From: an uncultured Clostridium sp.
GTDB taxonomy: Bacteria; Bacillota; Clostridia; Clostridiales; Clostridiaceae
Direction: 5' to 3'
DNA: 64,000 nt
NCBI GenBank assembly: GCA_934746015.1
Contig: CAKVEW010000007.1
Coordinates: 62,001 to 126,000 of the forward strand
Shown here: piece after piece, positions 9,046-62,827 of the stretch
How the letters are laid out: each line of letters starts with the position of its first letter
How positions within the stretch are numbered: position 1 is the stretch's first letter
Program-made: the position numbers and the translations under genes
The notes under the pieces: model-generated
The model's database searches: none
What the model was told of the DNA's origin: nothing
What the model saw: the letters and a program-made list of their open reading frames with translations, nothing else

Positions 9046-9206
9046 TTTTTATGGTTGCATACGCAATAACAGGGAATGAGGTTAGATTCCTCAACAGCCC
9101 CCGCTACTGTAAAAGCTACGAAACTCTCAATAGCCACTAGGATAATATCTTGGGAAGGTAAGAGGAATAGGTTTGAAGCTTTAAGTCAGGAGACCTACCA
9201 TAAAAA
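9046..9206 (+). promoter_or_regulatory. Cobalamin (B12) riboswitch aptamer
   Basis: The region carries the conserved cobalamin riboswitch sequence blocks in order: ACAGGGAATGAGGTTAGATTCC, AGCCCCCGCTACTGT, GCCACT, CTTGGGAAGG and the B12 box AGTCAGGAGACCTACC. The closing P1 stem is visible as TTTTTATGGT (9046-9055) with ACCATAAAAA (9197-9206). This class binds adenosyl- or methylcobalamin and normally switches expression off when B12 is abundant. The sequence downstream to 9321 holds the expression platform. It places the whole following operon under B12 control. Confidence 0.96.
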
Positions 9207-9292
9207 TTATACACAAAATTTCGGTGGGAAATTAAGGTGGAATTAATATTATGGTATATAAGTCTTTATAGTATCATATATTTTTGTGCGCT

Positions 9293-9321
9293 AAAGTCCT
9301 ATGAAAGTAGGGCTTTTTTTT
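9293..9321 (+). terminator. Riboswitch expression-platform terminator
   Basis: The stem AAAGTCCTA (9293-9301) with TAGGGCTTT (9308-9316), one G-T pair, ends in eight T. It sits 87 bp after the B12 aptamer and before the first gene, as expected for ligand-dependent premature termination. The bases between aptamer and terminator probably hold the competing antiterminator; I did not fold them. Confidence 0.85.
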
Positions 9322-9402
9322 ATCGTAATTTAATAAATCGTTATAGTTATAATTAGTATTAAATTGTTTTCGAGCAATTGAAAGGGAGGAGGGATAAGTA
9401 GT

Positions 9403-9549
9403 ATGGAAGAAAAAAAAAGAAATTTAGATACTAAGGAGGAGAAGTTAATAAAGATTATTAATGATATAAAATTTGGAGAAATTAAAATTATAGTTCAAGA
9501 TGGATTGCCTATTAGAATTGAGGAAATAAAAAAATCAATTAAATTATAA
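9403..9549 (+). CDS. Small DUF2292-family (YezD-like) protein
   Basis: A 48-residue ORF with a very strong ribosome site (GGGAGGAGGG) before ATG 9403. The pattern of a charged N-terminal helix followed by IKFGEIKIIVQDGLPIRIEE resembles the DUF2292/YezD family, whose core is a short strand pair around FG.V.I.VQDG. The family function is unknown; members often lie beside cofactor or sulfur-uptake genes. It is the first gene after the B12 riboswitch terminator and so part of the B12-controlled transcript. The family call is by eye. Confidence 0.65.
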   Translation: MEEKKRNLDTKEEKLIKIINDIKFGEIKIIVQDGLPIRIEEIKKSIKL

Positions 9550-9594
9550 GTTAAAAACAATTGTACTGACCAGAAAACTGGAGGTGCTAAGATA

Positions 9595-9630
9595 ATGATA
9601 ATATTAAAGTTATTTATAATTAAAAATTAG
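9595..9630 (+). CDS. Possible 11-residue leader peptide
   Basis: ATG 9595 follows a good ribosome site (GGAGGTGCTAAG), and the frame reads MIILKLFIIKN before TAG at 9630. It ends 14 bp before the start of the large secreted protein. A short CCAGAAAACTGG hairpin sits just before its ribosome site. It could couple translation to the next gene, whose own start context is poor. It may equally be an unused start site. Confidence 0.35.
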   Translation: MIILKLFIIKN

Positions 9631-9644
9631 TATATAAATGGAGG

Positions 9645-12302
9645 ATGATTACAATTAATAAGGAAAATAAAAAAATTATCAAAGTCATGGTCAGTTTATT
9701 GGTTCTTATGTCTATGTTTTTAAACTTTACAGTTACAGCATTTGCAGGAAATAATACAACTACACCAAAAGGTTATGTCACCATTGCCATAGAAAAATTC
9801 ACTTTGGGGCTTGGCTATGTAATTGAGCCAGTTAAAGTGCCATTTTATGAAGGAGATAATATTGCCAAATTAACTACTGATTTAATTGGTGAAGGAAATT
9901 ATGAAAATACAGGAAGCATAGAAAGCGGATTTTATTTATCTTCTGTAAAAGATAATGATATGAGAGAACCTAAGGTACCTCAGTATATATTAGATGAATC
10001 TGGAAGTATAGATGATAGAGGAACAGAAGGCTGGCTTGGAGAATTTGATTATACCTTTATGGCAGGTTGGATGTATTCTGTAAATAATAAATTCCCTAAC
10101 GTTGGATGTTCTGATATTATGCCAACAGATGGAGACGTAATTAGATGGCAGTTTACTGTTTATGGATATGGAATGGACTTAGGAGGTGGATTTGCAGGTG
10201 ATGCAAACTCAGGATCTTTTGAGGGTTCATATATCAAAATGGCTAATAAGGATATTCTTACTAAAAAGTTAGGTGAGATAAATAGTTCAGAAGATAAAGC
10301 TACAATTCTTGCAAAAAATGGAGCACAAGAGGCTTATGACAAGGCTTATGAAGTTATTAAAGTAGCTGAGTCATCTCAGGAAGAAGTAGATTTATCATTA
10401 AATAATCTTAATAAAGTAACTAATGAATCTAGTGAAAATTTAGATTTAGTAAAATTTAATCCAAGCTTAAAGGATGCAATTAACGAAACAGCAGCATTAA
10501 TGTATAAAAATACTCCAAATCCTGCTATTGGAACTGGATCTGGAGAATGGACAATATTATCCTTAGCCAGAGCTGGATATAATGTTCCACAAAGTTATTA
10601 TGATAAATACTATGAAAATGTGGAGAAGGAATTAGTGGAAAAGAATGGTGTATTGAGTACGGCAAAATATACTGAATATTCAAGATTGATTTTAGGACTT
10701 ACATCTATAGGTAGAGATGTAACAAATGTTTCAGGATATAATTTACTTGAAAAACTAGCTGATTTTAATAGTGTTAAAAAGCAGGGGATAAACGGACCTA
10801 TATTTGCTTTAATTGCACTAGATACAAATAAATATGAGATACCAGTGGTACCTGGTGTTACAGTACAAACTACAAGAGATATGCTTATAGATTATATATT
10901 ACAAAAAGAAATAACTACAAGTGACGGTAAATTAGGTGGATGGGCATTATCAGGGAAAACTCCAGATCCTGATATAACTGCTATGGCATTACAATCATTA
11001 GCTCCTTATAAAGATGATGAGAGAGTTAAGCCTTATATAGATAGAGCTGTACAAGCGCTTGCAGATATACAAAAAGATAATGGTGGATATTCAAGCTGGG
11101 GTTCAATTAATAGTGAGAGTATAGCTCAAGTTATAGTTGCCTTAACAGCTCTAGGAATAGATCCAACTAAAGATACTAGATTTATAAAAGGAGAAGGAAA
11201 TTGGATACTTTCTGCTATTATGGAGTTCTACGTTGAAGGTGGAGGATTTAAGCATATATTAGCAGGAAATAGAGATGGGATGGCAACAGATCAAGGAATG
11301 TATGCATTAGTTGCTTATGATAGATTTGTTAATGGGAAAAATAGTCTTTATGATATGACAGATGAAGAAATTACTGAAAATTTAGAGGGAAATGTAATAT
11401 TATCAGTACCTGAAAGAATTAATGGGAATAAAGGTACTGAATTTAAAATAAATGTAAGGATTGGAAGTTTTCCAGAAGGTTCATATAAATTATTAGATGG
11501 AATAATTAATATTCTAGACAGTATTGAAATTAAAAATGTAGAAATGAGTAAAAGTATTACTGGTGGATTACCTGACTTTGGAGTGGAAGGGAATAAGATA
11601 AGATTAGTATATACTAATACCAATCTTGCAAATATAGTATTTAGTGGAACTGAGTTCCCAGATGATATTATAACTATTACAGCTGTACTTAAAGAGAATA
11701 TTACAAAAGATACAGAATTACCAATTTCTATAGATACATTTACATTAAAAGCTAGTTCAGAAGCAGCGAGTACAGTATATTTTGATACAAGCAAATCATC
11801 TAAAAAGATAATAATTGGAGAGCAAGTAACAGCTAGTGGAAGAATTATGTATGATGGTGATGGAATTGATATAATTCCATCAAACAAATCTGCTATAGCA
11901 GTAGAATTTTCAAATTTAACTGGAACTCCTAGTATAAAGCTAAATGATAATATTGAAATGCGTTATTCAGCAGAAATATCTAATAAAACAGGTAAGGTAA
12001 CTTATGTTGCATTAGTTAATAAAACAGTAGCTTTAGATGGATTAAGCGATATAAATAAATATACTATAGCTAATAAAAAATCAAGTGAAATTAAATTTGG
12101 AGATGCAAATCTTGATTCAACAGTAAATGCTCAAGATGCTTTAAATACTTTATCTGCATGGCTACGAAAAAGTGGAACCCCAAGTGATGAAGGTATACTT
12201 TCTATGAATGTAACTGGAGATTCAAGAATTGATACTTATGATGTACTTGGAATTATGGAAAATTATATAAATGGTAGTGAATTCAGAGTTATAAGTAAAT
12301 AA
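9645..12302 (+). CDS. Secreted transcobalamin/intrinsic-factor-like protein with C-terminal dockerin
   Basis: An 885-residue exported protein. Visible order: signal peptide (1-34, ending TAFA); a DUF4430 domain (about 42-185, with the typical GWMYSVNNKFPNVGCSD and DGDVIRWQFTVYG), the fold of the beta domain of intrinsic factor and transcobalamin; a helical linker; an alpha/alpha toroid (about 270-585, with GGWALSGKTPDPDITAMAL and DNGGYSSWG), resembling the cobalamin-binding alpha domain and prenyltransferase-like barrels; a beta-rich, cohesin-like region (590-815); and a type I dockerin (about 825-880, two repeats GDANLDSTVNAQDAL and NVTGDSRIDTYDVL). With the B12 riboswitch upstream and ECF genes downstream, extracellular cobalamin or corrinoid capture is inferred. 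The start is uncertain: GGAGG abuts ATG 9645, so a slightly later start is possible. Confidence 0.78.
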   Translation: MITINKENKKIIKVMVSLLVLMSMFLNFTVTAFAGNNTTTPKGYVTIAIEKFTLGLGYVIEPVKVPFYEGDNIAKLTTDLIGEGNYENTGSIESGFYLSSVKDNDMREPKVPQYILDESGSIDDRGTEGWLGEFDYTFMAGWMYSVNNKFPNVGCSDIMPTDGDVIRWQFTVYGYGMDLGGGFAGDANSGSFEGSYIKMANKDILTKKLGEINSSEDKATILAKNGAQEAYDKAYEVIKVAESSQEEVDLSLNNLNKVTNESSENLDLVKFNPSLKDAINETAALMYKNTPNPAIGTGSGEWTILSLARAGYNVPQSYYDKYYENVEKELVEKNGVLSTAKYTEYSRLILGLTSIGRDVTNVSGYNLLEKLADFNSVKKQGINGPIFALIALDTNKYEIPVVPGVTVQTTRDMLIDYILQKEITTSDGKLGGWALSGKTPDPDITAMALQSLAPYKDDERVKPYIDRAVQALADIQKDNGGYSSWGSINSESIAQVIVALTALGIDPTKDTRFIKGEGNWILSAIMEFYVEGGGFKHILAGNRDGMATDQGMYALVAYDRFVNGKNSLYDMTDEEITENLEGNVILSVPERINGNKGTEFKINVRIGSFPEGSYKLLDGIINILDSIEIKNVEMSKSITGGLPDFGVEGNKIRLVYTNTNLANIVFSGTEFPDDIITITAVLKENITKDTELPISIDTFTLKASSEAASTVYFDTSKSSKKIIIGEQVTASGRIMYDGDGIDIIPSNKSAIAVEFSNLTGTPSIKLNDNIEMRYSAEISNKTGKVTYVALVNKTVALDGLSDINKYTIANKKSSEIKFGDANLDSTVNAQDALNTLSAWLRKSGTPSDEGILSMNVTGDSRIDTYDVLGIMENYINGSEFRVISK

Positions 12303-12321
12303 AAATCAAGTAGTATGCAGG

Positions 12322-12350
12322 CAACCTGTAAGAGTATTTCTTACAGGTTG
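12322..12350 (+). terminator. Intercistronic hairpin, probably a weak or partial terminator
   Basis: A perfect 11-bp stem (12322-12332 with 12340-12350) with a 7-base loop lies between the dockerin protein and the cohesin-like protein. Only TATTAT follows, not a true T-run. It may lower downstream expression or stabilise the upstream message, giving uneven amounts of the two proteins. Confidence 0.55.
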
Positions 12351-12373
12351 TATTATAAGTTTAGGAGGATTTT

Positions 12374-13009
12374 ATGATAGAGAAAATTAGAAACTTATCA
12401 AAGAAGAAAAAAATAGTAGGAGGTTCTATATTACTAATATTTATAGCTTTAATTATTTTTATATTTATTAAAACTTTAAAAGTTATTCAGACACCAACTA
12501 TTACACTAATGCCTCCAGCACCTCTAGAATCTTCAAATAGGGAAGAATTTATTGTAGATGTTATATTATCTGATTTGCCTAAAAATATTTATCCAGCAGC
12601 TAGTTTAACCATTGGATTTGATAAAAATAAAATAGAGTTTACTGGTACAAAACTTGGAACAATGATGACTTATGGTGATACTACAATAGATGGAAATTCA
12701 ATGAATATACCACTGTGGGATTGTAACGTAGAAAGAGCAAATGAAATTGGACAAATAAATACTATGTATTTGGATATGACAGCAGGAAAATACTCTTATT
12801 CTAGAGAGGGATTTGATAACGAAAAAAATAATGTTCTTCTTAGATTAGGTTTTAAGTTAAAGGATAGCGTATCAAAAGGTGAGGTATATAATATTAAAAT
12901 TAATGATGCAGTAATTGCTACTATAAATGGAGATATAGATAAAACAAGTCTTGCTACAAATCAAAAAACATTAAGATATAGTAACTGTAAGATAGCAGTA
13001 TTAAAATAG
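12374..13009 (+). CDS. Membrane-anchored cohesin-like protein
   Basis: A 211-residue protein with a basic N terminus, one transmembrane helix (about residues 14-35) and an extracellular domain of some 165 residues. The domain looks like a cohesin: VDVILSDLPKNIYPAASL, then TIGFDKNKIEFTGTKLG, a central INTMYLDMTAG strand and NVLLRLGFKLKD near the end, as in the jelly-roll modules that bind dockerins. The preceding gene ends in a dockerin, so this protein is a natural membrane anchor for it. This pairing is inferred. AGGAGG precedes ATG 12374. The call is by pattern; another immunoglobulin-like fold cannot be excluded. Confidence 0.68.
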   Translation: MIEKIRNLSKKKKIVGGSILLIFIALIIFIFIKTLKVIQTPTITLMPPAPLESSNREEFIVDVILSDLPKNIYPAASLTIGFDKNKIEFTGTKLGTMMTYGDTTIDGNSMNIPLWDCNVERANEIGQINTMYLDMTAGKYSYSREGFDNEKNNVLLRLGFKLKDSVSKGEVYNIKINDAVIATINGDIDKTSLATNQKTLRYSNCKIAVLK

Positions 13010-13027
13010 GGATAAGGGGAGGAATTA

Positions 13028-14275
13028 ATGAAAAAGAATTGGAGAAAGATAGTAATACCATTACTTACAGTAGCAGTATTAGTAATGGGGATTTTAACAG
13101 CTAAATCAATTTTAGGCAGGACGAATGGAAGTAGAGTTAATGATATTCCTGAAAATGGAGTTGTATCATCATCAGTTTTTAAAAAACTTATGAATAGCAA
13201 AGATATGATGATGTTTAATGGAGATAGCGGTGATATAAAATATCAATGGCTTTTTCGTGGTAATTATATAAAAGAGCCAACTGATACAAACTTATTAATG
13301 AATTTTGAAAATTATAAATTAGAGGATATAAAAGATTCAACTAAGTCAGAGTGGATACAAGGATTTCAATTTAATGAAACTAATAGTATTGAATCAAATC
13401 CTACTATATCTATAGAACTTCCCATTAAGTGGGACTGTAGTGGAGCTGATATTTATAAGTTTGATGAAGATAATAATATATATAAGGTAATATCAGGAGC
13501 TACTGTTGAAAATTCTGAAAAAACCACTATAACATTTACCCTTCTCGATAATAAAGGTAAGTTTTATATAGTAGGTAATGGATCAGCTATAAGCGGTAAT
13601 ATTAATGAGGAAAAAGATAAAACTAATGAAGAAATAGGAAATGTAGATAATAGTGAAGGGACACAAAGATATCTTACAGATGGTATAGCATCATCTGGTA
13701 AAAAATCTAAGGAAAAATATGCAGATACTGCAAAAGAGAGAGCTCAGATGGGGTTAGGGTCTGATAATAAAGATAAATATCAGACAGATCCAACACCAGA
13801 AGGAAAGCCAGGGCCAACAGAGTGGCAAGATTCAGTTATAGATAAGAACAAAATGAAAAAAGCTACTCTTTCAATTAGATGTGACACTTTATTAATACCA
13901 TCAAACTATGAGGTTGCTAAAGATAATGGAAAAGAAGAGATGATTCCAGCAAATGGTGTTATATATGCAACTAGAGAAGTGGAATTTTATGAAGGAGAAT
14001 CTGTTTTTGATGTACTATTACGTGAAGTTAAAAAGGAAAAAATTCATATGGAGTTTTCTATGACTCCAGTATATAACAGTAACTATATTGAAGGGATTAA
14101 TAATCTTTATGAATTTGATGGTGGAGAATTAAGTGGATGGATGTATAAGGTTAATGGATGGTTTCCAAACTATGGCTGTAGCAGATATCAACTTAAAGAG
14201 GGAGATACTATAGAATGGGTATATACCTGTGATTTAGGTAGAGATGTAGGATGCGATTGGTTAGGTGATGAATAA
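13028..14275 (+). CDS. Membrane-anchored DUF4430-domain protein
   Basis: A 415-residue protein with an uncleaved signal anchor (about residues 7-28), a beta-rich region without recognised motif (40-190), a low-complexity charged linker (190-280) and a C-terminal DUF4430 domain (285-410). The domain carries REVEFYEGESVFDVLLREV, GWMYKVNGWFPNYGCSRY and GDTIEWVYTCDLG, closely matching the DUF4430 domain of the secreted protein two genes upstream. DUF4430 is the fold of the transcobalamin beta domain. Placed between the capture protein and the ECF transporter, it may pass cobalamin to the S component. The tail has two or three Cys. Confidence 0.75.
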   Translation: MKKNWRKIVIPLLTVAVLVMGILTAKSILGRTNGSRVNDIPENGVVSSSVFKKLMNSKDMMMFNGDSGDIKYQWLFRGNYIKEPTDTNLLMNFENYKLEDIKDSTKSEWIQGFQFNETNSIESNPTISIELPIKWDCSGADIYKFDEDNNIYKVISGATVENSEKTTITFTLLDNKGKFYIVGNGSAISGNINEEKDKTNEEIGNVDNSEGTQRYLTDGIASSGKKSKEKYADTAKERAQMGLGSDNKDKYQTDPTPEGKPGPTEWQDSVIDKNKMKKATLSIRCDTLLIPSNYEVAKDNGKEEMIPANGVIYATREVEFYEGESVFDVLLREVKKEKIHMEFSMTPVYNSNYIEGINNLYEFDGGELSGWMYKVNGWFPNYGCSRYQLKEGDTIEWVYTCDLGRDVGCDWLGDE

Positions 14276-14277
14276 AT

Positions 14278-15168
14278 ATGAGTAATTCTTTTAAAAGCTT
14301 TCACCCTATAGTAAACTTCTATTACTTTGTAGTAGTTATATTCTTTAGTATGTTTTTTATGCATCCTATATTTTTAAGTATATCTCTTATTTGTTCATTT
14401 ATATATTCAGTGGCATTAAAGGGAAAAAAGGCAGTGAAGTTTAATATTTTGTATATGCTACCATTATTAATTGTAACTGCATTTATTAATCCAGCCTTTA
14501 ATCATGAAGGAGTAACTATTTTATTTTATTTAAAAGGTGGAAATCCCATTACTCTTGAATCAATTATATATGGCATAGCTGCAGCAATGATGTTTATATC
14601 AGTTATATTATGGTTTTCTTGCTATAACGAAATAATGACATCTGATAAGTTTATTTATTTGTGGGGCAGAATTATTCCAGGGATTTCACTTATTATTTCT
14701 ATGGTTTTAAGATTTGTACCTAAATATAAAGCACAAATTAAAAATATATCAAATGGACAAAAATCTATAGGTAGAGATATAAGTAATGGCAATATTATTA
14801 CTAGAGCAAAAAATGGGATTAAGATTTTATCTATTATGACTACTTGGGCTTTAGAAAATGCTATTGAAACAGCTGATTCTATGAAGTCTAGAGGTTATGG
14901 ATTAAGAGGTCGTACAAGCTTTTCTATATTTAGATTTGATAAAAGAGATAAGATTACTTTATCTTCAATGTTTATATTAACAGTAGTTATATTAATAGGT
15001 TATTGGTTTGGAAAAAATAGCATTAAGTATTTTCCTTATATAAAGATAGAACCAATTAGTGCTTTTAGTATAGTAGTATATAGTTCGTATTTTTTACTTT
15101 GTATTACTCCTGTTATAGCAGATTTTAGGGAGGAAATTAAATGGAAATATTTAAAGTTAGAAACTTAA
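14278..15168 (+). CDS. ECF transporter transmembrane component EcfT (CbiQ-like)
   Basis: A 296-residue membrane protein with about five to six hydrophobic helices. The cytoplasmic coupling helices carry the EcfT signature around residues 200-210, ADSMKSRGYGLRGR, matching the A..xRG motif that docks on the EcfA ATPases. It starts 3 bp after the upstream stop and overlaps the fused ATPase gene by 28 bp. EcfT couples ATP hydrolysis to movement of the substrate-binding S component. Substrate is not set by this subunit; the riboswitch suggests cobalamin. Confidence 0.88.
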   Translation: MSNSFKSFHPIVNFYYFVVVIFFSMFFMHPIFLSISLICSFIYSVALKGKKAVKFNILYMLPLLIVTAFINPAFNHEGVTILFYLKGGNPITLESIIYGIAAAMMFISVILWFSCYNEIMTSDKFIYLWGRIIPGISLIISMVLRFVPKYKAQIKNISNGQKSIGRDISNGNIITRAKNGIKILSIMTTWALENAIETADSMKSRGYGLRGRTSFSIFRFDKRDKITLSSMFILTVVILIGYWFGKNSIKYFPYIKIEPISAFSIVVYSSYFLLCITPVIADFREEIKWKYLKLET

Positions 15169-16895
15169 TATTTAAATATCCACTAAAGGATACACCTGCA
15201 CTAAATGGTGTTAATTTATCAATAAAACAAGGGGAATTTATAGTTATATGTGGAGAGTCAGGTTGTGGGAAAAGCACTTTACTTAGACAATTTAAAAGTA
15301 CTTTAACACCTCATGGGGAAAAGTATGGAGAAATTTTCTTTAATTCTAAGCCTATAGAAGAAATTAGTATGAGAATGCAAGCATCAGATATAGGATATGT
15401 GCTTCAAAGTCCTGATAATCAAATTGTAACAGATAAGGTTTGGCATGAATTAGCCTTTGGACTTGAAAGCTTAGGATATGATAATAATACAATAAGGCTT
15501 AGAGTGGCAGAAATGGCAAGCTTCTTTGGAATACAAACATGGTTTATGAAAAATGTAACTGAATTATCAGGAGGTCAAAAGCAACTTTTAAATCTTGCAT
15601 CAATAATGGCAATGCAGCCAAAGGTATTAATTTTAGATGAACCAACTTCACAACTAGATCCTATTGCAGCTGGAGATTTTCTAGAAACTATAAAGAAAAT
15701 TAATAGGGAGCTTGGAATAACTATAATTATGAGCGAGCATCATTTAGAAGAGGCTTTTAATATGGCAGATAGAGTTATTGTAATGGATAATGGAAAAATA
15801 ATAGTAGATGATACACCAACCTTAGTTGGGAAAAAATTAAAGGAAATAAATCATAAAATGTTTCTTGCAATGCCATCTGCAATGAAAATATATTCAAAGG
15901 TAGAAAATGATTTAGAGTGTCCAATTACAGTGAGAGATGGGCGAAACTGGATTGATGAACTTTTAAAGGATAAAGATATTAAACATAATGAAGTTGAAGA
16001 AAAAAATATAGAATTAGAAAGTCTGAAAAAAAGAAAGATTATTAATGATAATAAGTTAAATATTAAAGAATTTGGATTAAAAAAAAGAAATGAAATTAAT
16101 AGTGATATTGCAATAAAAATTAGGGATGTATGGTTTAAGTATGATAAAAATGAACCAGATGTTATTAAGGATTTATCATTAGAAGTGAAAAAGGGAGAAT
16201 TCCATTGTATTGTTGGAGGAAATGGTACTGGAAAAACTACAGCACTTTCAATTATAAGTGGAATAAATAAGCATTACAGAGGTAAAGTTGAAATATTTGG
16301 TAAGGATATAAAAAAGTATAATAGCATGGAGCTTTTTAGAAATAAATTAGGAGTTCTTCCTCAAAATCCACAAGTCTTATTTGTTAAAAAGACAGTGGAA
16401 CTAGATTTATATGAGGCCTTATCTGGATTTAAATTAAGTAAGGAAGAAAAGACAAAAAGAGTTAGAAAAATTGCGAGTTTAGTAGAGATTGAGGATTTAT
16501 TACTAATGCATCCTTACGATTTAAGTGGTGGTGAGCAGCAAAGAGCAGCTCTAGCTAAGGTACTTTTATTAGAACCTAAAATTTTACTTTTGGATGAACC
16601 TACCAAAGGAATTGATGGACATTTTAAAATAAAATTTGCCAGGATATTACGAAAATTGCAAGTAGATGGAATGACTATTGTTATGGTTTCTCATGATATT
16701 GAATTTTGCGCTGAGTATGCTGACAAATGTTCATTATTCTTTGATGGAAATATAGTTACTTCAAATACTGCTAATAAATTCTTTTCAGGAAATAGTTTTT
16801 ACACTACATCTGCAAATAGAATATCAAGACATATTTTTAAAAATGCTGTTACTTGTGAGGATGTGATTAAGCTATGCCAAGAAAATCAAAGATAG
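15141..16895 (+). CDS. ECF transporter ATPase, two fused EcfA domains
   Basis: A 584-residue protein with two complete ABC ATPase domains in tandem, replacing the usual separate EcfA and EcfA' subunits. Domain 1 (about 1-240): Walker A GESGCGKST, Q-loop VLQSPDNQIV, signature LSGGQKQ, Walker B VLILDEPTSQLD. Domain 2 (about 325-560): GGNGTGKTT, LPQNPQVLF, LSGGEQQR, ILLLDEPTKGID. A charged linker of about 80 residues joins them. Both domains keep the catalytic Glu. The start overlaps the end of EcfT, implying translational coupling. A dedicated (group I type) ECF module fits the complete gene set here. Confidence 0.92.
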   Translation: MEIFKVRNLIFKYPLKDTPALNGVNLSIKQGEFIVICGESGCGKSTLLRQFKSTLTPHGEKYGEIFFNSKPIEEISMRMQASDIGYVLQSPDNQIVTDKVWHELAFGLESLGYDNNTIRLRVAEMASFFGIQTWFMKNVTELSGGQKQLLNLASIMAMQPKVLILDEPTSQLDPIAAGDFLETIKKINRELGITIIMSEHHLEEAFNMADRVIVMDNGKIIVDDTPTLVGKKLKEINHKMFLAMPSAMKIYSKVENDLECPITVRDGRNWIDELLKDKDIKHNEVEEKNIELESLKKRKIINDNKLNIKEFGLKKRNEINSDIAIKIRDVWFKYDKNEPDVIKDLSLEVKKGEFHCIVGGNGTGKTTALSIISGINKHYRGKVEIFGKDIKKYNSMELFRNKLGVLPQNPQVLFVKKTVELDLYEALSGFKLSKEEKTKRVRKIASLVEIEDLLLMHPYDLSGGEQQRAALAKVLLLEPKILLLDEPTKGIDGHFKIKFARILRKLQVDGMTIVMVSHDIEFCAEYADKCSLFFDGNIVTSNTANKFFSGNSFYTTSANRISRHIFKNAVTCEDVIKLCQENQR

Positions 16896-16909
16896 ATAAG
16901 GAAAAAATA

Positions 16910-17698
16910 ATGATATATGAAGATCAATTTGAGAAAAAAGTAGAAGAGGATGTTAATGAAATTAAATTAATAAATAATGAGAAGACTATAAAAAATAAGT
17001 TAAGCGAAAGAACTATATTTGCTACAGTATTGATATTAATAGTTATTCCAATAACTATAGCCTTTGGAGTATTTGTGCTAAATGATAGAAAGTATTATTT
17101 TATAAGTATGCTTATAGTTTTATATACAATGATTCCATTCTTTATGGTATTTGAGAAAAAGAAGCCACAGGCAAGAGAACTTATAATAATTTCAGTTTTA
17201 GCAGCTATTGCAGTTGCTGGTAGGGGGGCTTTTTTCATGATACCTCAATTTAAACCAGTAGTTGCAATTGTAATTATTTCAGGAGTATGCTTTGGAGCAG
17301 AATCAGGATTTTTAGTTGGATCCATGACAGGTTTTGTTTCAAATTTTTTCTTTGGTCAAGGTCCATGGACTCCATGGCAAATGTTTAGTTTTGGAATAAT
17401 TGGTTTTTTAGCAGGAATATTATTCAAAAAAGGAATGCTTAAAAAGACAAGGTTACCACTATGTATATTTGGTGGAGTTTCTACATTTGTTATTTATGGA
17501 ATAATAATGAATACGGCATCGTTATTTATGTTCTCTTCAAAGATTACATTTAAGGCGTTGATGACATTTTATATATCAGGAATCTCATTTGATGCAATTC
17601 ATGCTATAGCTACAGTATTTTTTTTATTTATAATATCAGATCCAATGATAGAGAAATTGGATAGAATAAAGATAAAGTATGGGCTTATAGAGAGGTAG
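16910..17698 (+). CDS. ECF transporter S component, probable cobalamin/corrinoid type
   Basis: A membrane protein of about 262 residues with a charged 35-40-residue N-terminal extension and six hydrophobic helices. The core has VLAAIAVAGRGAFFMIPQFKP and, further on, GFLVGSMTGFVSNFFFGQGPWTPWQM, the pattern of S components often annotated for cobalamin (CbrT-like). It supplies substrate specificity to EcfT/EcfA. ATG 16910 follows AAGG and lies just after the EcfA stop; an earlier in-frame ATG at 16874 overlaps EcfA and is possible. Substrate is inferred from the B12 riboswitch and the DUF4430 partners, not from binding residues. Confidence 0.8.
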   Translation: MIYEDQFEKKVEEDVNEIKLINNEKTIKNKLSERTIFATVLILIVIPITIAFGVFVLNDRKYYFISMLIVLYTMIPFFMVFEKKKPQARELIIISVLAAIAVAGRGAFFMIPQFKPVVAIVIISGVCFGAESGFLVGSMTGFVSNFFFGQGPWTPWQMFSFGIIGFLAGILFKKGMLKKTRLPLCIFGGVSTFVIYGIIMNTASLFMFSSKITFKALMTFYISGISFDAIHAIATVFFLFIISDPMIEKLDRIKIKYGLIER

Positions 17699-33238: not shown

Positions 33239-33309
33239 TTCTTTCATTTCTTTAATATTGACAAAAATAATAATATATTATAAGATAACTTTACAAAATC
33301 ATATATTAA

Positions 33310-33550
33310 AAGCAATGAGAAAGAGGAGTAAGGAATACTGTATATAAAGAGAATGAAGGTCACTGGCTGAAAGCCTTCTATATTAAAGTACCCTGAAGGT
33401 AGCTTTTGAGCATCTTTACTGAAATTAAGTAAGTAAAGGCGGCTGTTCTTAGTCGTTAATAAATAAAGAGCTTAATATATTTATTATGTTAAGAATAAAG
33501 GTGGTACCGCGAGTCTTCGTCCTTTTATGACGAAGGCTCTTTTTATTTTA
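33310..33550 (+). promoter_or_regulatory. T-box leader of valS
   Basis: The leader carries a Stem I (GAATGAAGGTCACTGGCTGAAAGCCTTC region), the antiterminator T-box AAAGGTGGTACCGCG (33498-33512) and a terminator stem (GAGTCTTCGTCC with GACGAAGGCTC, 33511-33539) followed by T. T-boxes read uncharged tRNA and permit transcription when it accumulates. A GTA triplet at 33388-33390, in the expected 3' side of Stem I, is a candidate Val specifier. TTGACA at 33258-33263 is a probable -35 element. It controls valS. Confidence 0.93.
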
Positions 33551-53352: not shown

Positions 53353-53385
53353 TAATATAATCAATAAAATTTTCTAGAGTATTTG

Positions 53386-53610
53386 TTTCCTAAGGGTTTT
53401 CTATGGAACTTATACCTGAATTTAAATTCACAGGGTACATATTTGAAAAAATAGTATCTCCACTTTTATGGGAAGGAAAATAAGTTGATTTAAATATCAT
53501 TTTAAGATTTAGGTTTTAAAATCTAAATCTAATTTAAAACTATTTATAGTTACTAAATATATTTAAATTTAGACTTATTATTCACAAACATATGAATAAT
53601 AAGTCCTTTT
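53386..53610 (+). promoter_or_regulatory. Structured attenuator upstream of moeA, candidate molybdenum cofactor riboswitch
   Basis: Bases 53386-53479 can form a multi-branched fold: P1 TTTCCT (53386-53391) with AGGAAA (53474-53479), a hairpin TACCTG (53413-53418) with CAGGGTA (53431-53437), and a small CTCC/GGGA stem. About 90 bases later a perfect 13-bp stem (53572-53584 with 53593-53605) and CTTTTATTTT form a terminator just before the moeA ribosome site. An aptamer plus terminator before a cofactor gene suggests ligand-controlled attenuation. A match to the known Moco/tungsten cofactor RNA class is possible but not shown. Confidence 0.5.
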
Positions 53611-61604: not shown

Positions 61605-62827
61605 TGAAATATATAATAGTTGGTGCATCAGCATCAGGAATAAATGCAGCAAGAACTTTAAGACAATTCAATAAAGAATGTGAAATAATATTGGTATCTA
61701 AAGATGAATATGTATATTCTCGCTGTATACTTCATCATTTTTTAGATGGAAGAAGAGAAATAGAAGCCTTAGATTTTACACCAGATAATTTTTTTGATAT
61801 CTATGATATAGAATGGATTAAGGGTGTAGAAGTAGTTGGAATAGATATTAAGGATAAAAAAATAAATTTAGACAATGGAAAGAGTATAGAATACGATAAG
61901 TTGTTATTAGCTGCAGGTGCATCTTCATTTTTGCCACCAATAGAAAATCTAAGAACAGCTAATAATGTTATTGGATTAAGAAATTTAGATGATGCTATTA
62001 AGATTAAGGAAATGGCAACTAAAGTAAAAAATATAGCTATATTAGGAGCTGGCCTTGTAGGAGTAGATGCATTAGCAGGATTATTAGATTATGATGTTAA
62101 TTTAACATTAATAGAAATGGGTGATAGATTACTCCCACTACAGCTAGATAAGTATGCAGCCAGTAAGTATGAAGAAAGGCTGAAAAAAGAAGGGGTTAGC
62201 TTAAAGTTTGGAGTGAGAGCAGAAAAAGTGATTATTGATGATGGTAATAATCCGATTTCAATAAGGTTAGACACTGGAGAAGAAGTTCCTTGTGAGTTGT
62301 TAATTGCCTGTGCAGGAGTAAGAGCAAATGTTGGATTTTTAAAGGATAGTGGAATTGAATGTGATAAATTTGGATTGATAATTAATGAAAAAGGGGAGAC
62401 AAATATTAAAGATATTTATGGGGCAGGAGATATAACTGGCAGAAATCCAATATGGCCAACAGCTGTAAAGGAAGGAATGATAGCTGCAAATAACATGGTA
62501 GGAAAAGAAACTTTTATGGAAGACTTTTTTGCTAGTAAGAATACAATGAACTTTTGTGGGTTAGCAACCATGTCACTTGGATTAGTAGCTAAACCAGATG
62601 ATACTTATGAGGAAGTAATAGATATTGATGGTAAAGATTATAAAAAAATAATATATAAAGATGGGGCAATTTATGGAGCTATAGTTCAAGGAGATTTATC
62701 CTATGTAGGTGTTTTGACTCAATTAATTAAAGAGAAAATAAATGTAGATAGAGTTAAAAAGCCTTTATTTGATGTTGATTATTCTGATTTCTTTAATGAG
62801 ACAGAAAATTTAGAGTTCGTATATTAA
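61604..62827 (+). CDS. FAD/NAD-dependent oxidoreductase, nar operon 2
   Basis: A 407-residue paralog of the flavoprotein at 51495. Dinucleotide motifs IIVGASASGINAARTL, AILGAGLVGVDALAGL and DIYGAGDITGRNPIWPTA are intact. It shares one base with the ferredoxin stop, as in copy 1, so the operon architecture is duplicated exactly. Likely NAD(P)H-linked electron source for the second reductase. Confidence 0.9.
   Translation: MKYIIVGASASGINAARTLRQFNKECEIILVSKDEYVYSRCILHHFLDGRREIEALDFTPDNFFDIYDIEWIKGVEVVGIDIKDKKINLDNGKSIEYDKLLLAAGASSFLPPIENLRTANNVIGLRNLDDAIKIKEMATKVKNIAILGAGLVGVDALAGLLDYDVNLTLIEMGDRLLPLQLDKYAASKYEERLKKEGVSLKFGVRAEKVIIDDGNNPISIRLDTGEEVPCELLIACAGVRANVGFLKDSGIECDKFGLIINEKGETNIKDIYGAGDITGRNPIWPTAVKEGMIAANNMVGKETFMEDFFASKNTMNFCGLATMSLGLVAKPDDTYEEVIDIDGKDYKKIIYKDGAIYGAIVQGDLSYVGVLTQLIKEKINVDRVKKPLFDVDYSDFFNETENLEFVY

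Follow-up and report, generated by a model that had tools for sequence, protein, structure and literature searches.

A cobalamin riboswitch-linked clostridial operon with a transcobalamin-like surface protein: a probable system for corrinoid capture and import

What is a vitamin B12 riboswitch doing ahead of genes for a secreted, dockerin-bearing protein that recalls intrinsic factor? The question is raised by a locus of an uncultured Clostridium sp. situated within a stretch of 64,000 nucleotides (positions 62,001 to 126,000 of contig CAKVEW010000007.1; the whole stretch is here called the window and all coordinates refer to it), where according to the list of open reading frames (ORFs) six co-directional genes follow a cobalamin riboswitch, in the order already given by a preliminary description of this DNA. 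They encode a candidate capture protein (ORF1), a membrane-anchored cohesin-like protein (ORF2), a membrane-anchored DUF4430 protein (ORF3) and the parts of an energy-coupling factor (ECF) transporter, namely EcfT, a fused EcfA-EcfA' ATPase (EcfAA') and an S component, and all features of this operon lie on the forward strand. We consider it probable that they constitute a B12-repressed operon for the capture of corrinoids at the cell surface and for their import, and as to its parts it is very likely indeed that the cargo is a corrinoid and highly probable that ORF1 is the surface capture protein, while a hand-over of the cargo by way of ORF3 is only slightly favoured. The Gram-positive extracellular corrinoid scavenging system that the preliminary description had proposed is thus supported by a carrier fold, a CbrT-like S component and a riboswitch link, from which corrinoid binding would follow.

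The riboswitch aptamer (RF00174, 9035..9216) has a score of 118.8 bits (cut-off 31.5, E 3.4e-29), matching the covariance model at full length (positions 1-189) and above the gathering cut-off, and is followed by an intrinsic terminator at 9293..9316, a 10-pair stem and then a T run, which is probably the expression platform. One terminator was observed after the riboswitch where shuffles lead one to expect 0.1, and the RNA fold of 9217-9330 has a z score of -3.8. Relatives, the best 80 of 530 confirmed in a species-genome scan, gave 75 loci on which the counts of loci rest. In searches of whole genomes with RF00174 and RF01482, where contig identity was inferred from coordinates, a cobalamin riboswitch was found at most 1.5 kb upstream on the same strand in 52 of 59 loci (the match of L075 being below the cut-off), and direct Rfam scans found one in 6 of 7 loci, the seventh of which starts 108 bases before the ORF. 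A small ORF of 48 residues with a DUF2292 match (9403..9549; PF10055, 36.1 bits, cut-off 22) sits between the riboswitch terminator and ORF1 of the window, and 7 of the 75 loci have a relative of it ahead of the capture gene, at a distance of no more than 1.5 kb.

As for the transporter, its three genes overlap one another and are, as had been claimed, recognised by Pfam and NCBIfam: EcfT of the CbiQ family (14278..15168) by PF02361 with 25.2 bits, just over the cut-off of 25, the fused ATPase (15141..16895) in two stretches each by ABC_tran (203.6 bits) and TIGR04520 (385.8 bits), and the S component (16874..17698) by ECF_trnsprt (43.3 bits). The nearest relative of the latter in the PDB is 6fnp_A, with an E value of 2e-11 for the single sequence and of 1.9e-16 (63.4 bits) for a profile of 24 sequences, and the match spans residues 95-270, preceded by an extension. 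The S component is accordingly nearest to CbrT and predicted to transport cobalamin; the structure 6FNP is that of ECF-CbrT, which transports cobinamide as well as cobalamin, the latter being bound at about 9 nM (PMC5997447), and CbrT of Lactobacillus delbrueckii is described as located in nrdJ-cbrS-cbrT-pduO. It might instead be argued that the S component imports another vitamin, of the riboflavin or folate type, and that the B12 link is merely regulatory, since the Pfam family of riboflavin S components also matches it (39.2 bits, cut-off 26.7) and the NCBIfam folate family does so weakly (26.4, cut-off 60). The profile built from its own family scores RibU (3p5n) at 22.3 bits and 4hzu_S at 19.0, however, far from the score of CbrT, and the S component belongs to an operon that also has a riboswitch for B12 and the fold of a B12 carrier, so that this explanation would come as a considerable surprise. 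A non-B12 S component was rejected on the profile scores, and an S component of a family for an unrelated vitamin, one of the findings by which the preliminary description would have had its scavenging system refuted, is not what we see. EcfT is included in 57 of the 75 loci, and these contain EcfA in 53 cases and an S component in 52; all five of the loci that lack the latter (L008, L010, L015, L022 and L031) are short or cut by an edge. As an unusual ECF arrangement, the S component follows EcfAA' within one polypeptide, as a C-terminal fusion, in 16 loci (L006, L011-L014, L016-L018, L020, L032, L036, L038, L040, L041, L043 and L053), giving proteins of 736-1172 residues as called. The fusion of L036 reaches the contig end, and L043, from a metagenome-assembled genome (MAG) labelled Alistipes senegalensis, bears a Clostridia-type operon on what is possibly a mis-binned contig.

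Is ORF1 then likely to bind what the transporter imports? The protein of 885 residues (9645..12302), the N-terminus of which reads like a signal peptide, was modelled as a whole by AlphaFold2 (AF2) with a mean predicted local distance difference test (pLDDT) score of 85.8 and a predicted template modelling (pTM) score of 0.47, and this model shows, within the one chain, a DUF4430 domain and an alpha6/alpha6 toroid as well as beta modules and, at the C-terminus, a helical region for the dockerin. The DUF4430 domain (residues 40-180, 9762..10184) is recognised by PF14478 above the cut-off with 41.6 bits, and since fold searches with the whole of ORF1 are filled by cohesin-like and toroid modules it was predicted separately (AF2; pLDDT 92, pTM 0.86), upon which transcobalamin, intrinsic factor and haptocorrin became the top Foldseek and VIA matches. 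In its model, the domain thus shares its fold with the beta domain of the B12 carriers, and this part of the preliminary description holds, as does its second, anchored DUF4430 protein, ORF3, which PF14478 matches with 68.7 bits. The toroid (residues 270-577, 10452..11375) has a match to a squalene-cyclase-type Pfam family below the cut-off (17.1 bits against 26.1), and its modelled fold is compatible with the alpha domain of the B12 carriers. With respect to the start of ORF1, it may be noted that a GGAGG ribosome site abuts the called ATG at 9645 (window 9640-9656), and an in-frame ATT at 9654 is better spaced and close to where the aligned relatives start; ORF1 may hence begin at this rare codon.

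The toroid offers a further check. In a survey of 196 genomes, an even draw from the class to which the genome of L001 belongs, a toroid profile (E <= 1e-20) found the domain in 57, and linkage was counted in 55 of these carriers, G001 and G007 being excluded: 39 have an S component no more than 12 kb downstream and 36 a riboswitch no more than 8 kb upstream, with both in 26 and either in 49. Over whole genomes, an S component occurs in 51 of the 55 toroid-positive ones and in 20 of the 139 that are toroid-negative (Fisher p 2e-25, uncorrected for relatedness).

How would such a protein be kept at the cell? ORF1 ends in a putative dockerin (residues 815-876, 12087..12272) with two loop-helix repeats that are both conserved in an alignment of 39 rows, albeit scoring 19.8 bits with PF00404 where the cut-off is 22.9, and the next gene encodes the putative cohesin ORF2 (12374..13009), which scores 21.2 bits with PF00963 (cut-off 24.1) and, like ORF3, reads as having a single hydrophobic stretch at its N-terminus. 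In relatives the two weak modules frequently stand out better, as a dockerin was found above the cut-off in five of seven scanned DUF4430-toroid proteins (L010, L013, L017, L030 and L035) and weakly in L006, and the cohesin scores above it in one of three relatives of ORF2 (L030, 35.5 bits; L001 with 22.4 and L013 with 23.0 fall below). The strongest evidence that the two modules pair, and that tethering matters, comes from the exchange of the dockerin for SLH domains. With a profile built from the capture-protein family, on which the dockerin calls in L034 and elsewhere rest, a dockerin is found on the toroid ORF of 36 of the 75 loci and a cohesin gene alongside in 35 of these, the one without (L039) being a locus that stops just past ORF1. 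SLH domains are found on the toroid ORF in 31 loci and neither tether in 8, and there is a cohesin gene in none of either group. Counted by operon in the 57 loci with EcfT, the cohesin gene is present in 30/30 of the dockerin type and in 0/27 of the others (0/24 of the SLH type, 0/1 with a weak SLH match, L048, and 0/2 with neither, L050 and L053). This conserved co-occurrence backs the weak scores of the window proteins, and from its exactness we infer that the dockerin of ORF1 would pair with the cohesin of ORF2; the dockerin and the anchored cohesin-like protein of the preliminary description are therefore backed by conserved repeats and by gene content, their Pfam scores being below the cut-offs. 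A further cohesin-like beta module is tentatively placed at residues 580-712 of ORF1 itself (11382..11780). Cohesins lead the Foldseek list of the whole ORF1 model, and Pfam recognises a cohesin at the corresponding place in the capture protein of L030 (32.6 bits) and, below the cut-off, in that of L006 (19.5 bits). With its own cohesin-like module beside a dockerin, the capture protein could possibly chain to itself through dockerin-cohesin contacts.

The tethers also bear on the notion that the capture protein is a shared or defensive device, i.e. a secreted store or a sponge that denies the vitamin to competitors, and not a feeder of the transporter. This notion is in agreement with the secretion of the protein, with the several toroids of some forms and with the loci that have neither tether on the toroid ORF, but it is in poor agreement with the facts that the toroid ORF is upstream of ecfT in 57/57 loci with EcfT and that 55 of these 57 operons have a dockerin or SLH domain on it, one of them weakly, and we regard it as improbable.

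There are nonetheless several observations that weigh against a B12-carrier-like capture protein in a corrinoid uptake operon. The match of the toroid fold to the alpha domain of the carriers ties with farnesyltransferase and ranks below squalene-hopene cyclase, which is also the best match of the toroid sequence profile among PDB sequences (E 1.5e-12), and neither this profile, which matched cyclases and others, nor that of the DUF4430 domain, searched to E 10, matched transcobalamin or intrinsic factor among these sequences. In addition, the DUF4430 domain precedes the toroid, which is the reverse of the order in the carriers, and the pTM of the whole ORF1 model leaves the relative placement of the two unfixed. 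The dockerin and cohesin of the window are below the Pfam cut-offs, as given above, and Pfam recognises no dockerin in the L008 capture protein or the L034 toroid protein and in the latter no domain of any kind. With regard to the genomic context, 7 of the 59 loci are without a counted riboswitch (L009, L011, L026, L028, L029, L056 and L065), 6 of the 55 toroid carriers have neither an S component nor a riboswitch nearby (G122, G136, G173, G178, G242 and G260), and 20 toroid-negative genomes have an S component (13/70 and 7/69). Finally, among the 57 genomes from which the 59 loci were taken, 12 contain CbiC, a marker of corrin synthesis, and these hosts may make corrins of their own.

Some of these observations could be taken to mean that the toroid is an enzyme, resembling a terpene cyclase or prenyltransferase, or else a glycan-related part of a cellulosome that happens to be placed behind a B12 riboswitch, and the sequence match to squalene-hopene cyclase as well as the dockerin and cohesin modules, which are chiefly known from cellulosomes, would suit such an explanation. 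Class II terpene cyclases have the acid motif DxDD, however, and this is found in 0/98 toroid domains, of which 97 have DxD[ILMV]T; a terpene cyclase identity was consequently rejected. The toroid protein furthermore appears to be secreted, a domain of the transcobalamin type is attached to it and its gene is part of an ECF-CbrT operon, and we find the enzyme or cellulosome explanation highly improbable. Of the toroid as described preliminarily, the fold thus stands as compatible with the transcobalamin alpha domain, whereas the sequence is nearer to terpene cyclases.

If the operon serves uptake, which corrinoid is taken up? CbiC is rare in the host genomes, and with the reservation that the completeness of the assemblies is not given, most hosts therefore appear to depend on external corrinoid; a B12-binding domain scores above the cut-off in 54 of the same 57 genomes, but also in 12 of 14 controls, and is hence not distinctive. 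The same operon could mainly transport corrinoid precursors or other cobamides, such as cobinamide and pseudocobalamin, in place of cobalamin. The transport of cobinamide by ECF-CbrT (PMC5997447) and the binding of cobalamin analogues by haptocorrin (PMC5599065, PMC4350170) are in line with this, while the lack of CbiC in 45 of the 57 genomes, in which salvage enzymes were not searched, speaks against it, and on the whole we deem such a main cargo rather unlikely.

The last question is how a tethered protein might feed the transporter, and here the surface capture reading leads to ORF3 (13028..14275, Pfam match at 13994-14227), which has its DUF4430 domain at the C-terminus. In 57/57 loci with EcfT, an ORF3-like ORF ends -194 to +28 nucleotides from ecfT (longest-ORF starts). 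In locus L034 the capture protein is split in two, the DUF4430 domain being on a protein that has CWB2 wall-binding repeats and the toroid and dockerin on another, and L029 is split likewise, with no CWB2 repeats recognised. There are also minimal operons: L071, L072 and L074 encode an SLH-toroid protein and ORF3, and in L050 (9848-11263) the operon toroid is joined to a copper-amine-oxidase-N-type domain that replaces the dockerin or SLH domains, again with ORF3. The DUF4430 domain of ORF3 is the only one recognised in these four operons, so that a clamp made of toroid and DUF4430 domain would need two proteins. A divergent neighbour gene of L050 encodes a further SLH-DUF4430-toroid protein. 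A precedent for the split forms is provided by the alpha and beta domains of human transcobalamin, which when produced as separate proteins elute together only if cobalamin is there (PMC5599065).

Taken together, these data suggest the following course of events. At low intracellular cobalamin the riboswitch would let transcription proceed past the terminator, as is established for riboswitches and inferred here, and the secreted ORF1 would bind a corrinoid with its beta-type DUF4430 domain and toroid, as fold and context indicate. Its dockerin would clip onto the anchored cohesin ORF2, a role that S-layer or other domains would have in relatives, and ORF3 would receive the corrinoid beside EcfT, probably clamping it jointly with the tethered toroid, and hand it on to the S component of CbrT type, from which the motor of EcfT and EcfAA' would release it into the cell. 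One may tentatively go further, though here we lean slightly towards doubt, and envisage a modular bacterial intrinsic factor, the toroid and DUF4430 halves of which reside on one or two surface proteins and close only on bound corrinoid, with the toroid half docked through cohesin-dockerin or S-layer contacts beside a membrane-bound beta half, and with ORF3 feeding the CbrT-type S component directly; this would be, as far as we could find, the first ECF transporter with an extracellular receptor complex as its feeder.

The loci come from Clostridium, Terrisporobacter, Ruminococcus, Oscillospiraceae, Christensenellaceae, Paenibacillus, Ureibacillus, Tissierella, Lutispora and others, and three MAGs of actinobacterial families or Coriobacteriales are among the hosts. 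Elsewhere in the window, a molybdenum/tungsten cofactor riboswitch (53359-53494, 52.4 bits) precedes a MoeA gene, in whose region there are two molybdopterin oxidoreductase genes, and a T-box leader (33306-33527, 126 bits) is found upstream of an ORF of 880 residues.

Competition for B12 shapes microbial communities, and surface capture of the vitamin has been characterised in Bacteroides (PMC6143338) and, as far as we found, not in Gram-positives. If correct, our interpretation would supply the capture step for Clostridia and Paenibacillus relatives, an extracellular feeder for ECF transporters and a transcobalamin-like solution in bacteria, and it would extend cohesin-dockerin pairing from polysaccharide breakdown to vitamin uptake. 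It would also hint at a function for many proteins that lack annotation, given that a query with just ORF3 scored at least 7358 relatives among 7997 candidates. Already known are ECF-CbrT, B12 riboswitches, cohesin-dockerin pairing and, in Bacteroides, B12 capture through proteins of the BtuG and DUF4465 types, but a search of the literature, in which preprints and most subscription journals were outside the scope, found no description of the whole system; we therefore call new the combination of ECF-CbrT-type B12 import with a transcobalamin-like receptor.

Among known systems, the cellulosome, where glycoside hydrolases are carried on a scaffoldin, resembles the operon by the two loop repeats of the ORF1 dockerin and the membrane-anchored ORF2 cohesin, but here the dockerin cargo is a putative vitamin-binding protein from the same operon. 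The gene rtpR, which we take to encode a B12-dependent reductase, leads to a second comparison. In Lacticaseibacillus rhamnosus a DUF4430 gene adjoins it, and the same article lists an 'Additional lipoprotein component of putative cobalamin ECF transporter' (PMC9963975). This lipoprotein, which may belong to the ORF3 family, is likewise an extracytoplasmic extra part that has been ascribed to an ECF transporter for cobalamin. The preliminary description was aware of no described system with this combination; in the literature searched this holds for the whole system and not for the idea of the extra lipoprotein, although the latter is a label only, and the accessible text of PMC9963975 mentions no toroid, dockerin, cohesin or riboswitch. 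The BtuG and DUF4465 binders of Bacteroides also grab B12 at the surface ahead of a transporter, with a riboswitch at the BtuG2 locus, and BtuG is a seven-bladed propeller lipoprotein with BtuB as partner (PMC6143338) while DUF4465 proteins are beta-jellyrolls (PMC13398666); no match to a beta-propeller or DUF4465 was found in ORF1-ORF3 with Pfam up to E 1. ECF-CbrT of Lactobacillus delbrueckii (6FNP, PMC5997447) shares EcfT, two EcfA domains and a CbrT-like S component with the operon of the window, which differs in being dedicated and riboswitch-controlled, in its fused EcfA-EcfA', in the added extracellular proteins and in the N-terminal extension of its S component. Transcobalamin, intrinsic factor and haptocorrin, finally, share with ORF1 the alpha/alpha toroid and the DUF4430-type beta domain, and vertebrate transcobalamins have been noted to carry DUF4430 at their C-terminal end (PMC4350170). 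In ORF1, by contrast, the beta domain lies ahead of the toroid at a distance of about 90 residues, the toroid is nearer to terpene cyclases in sequence, bacterial anchoring modules have been added, and in some loci the two domains are found on two proteins.

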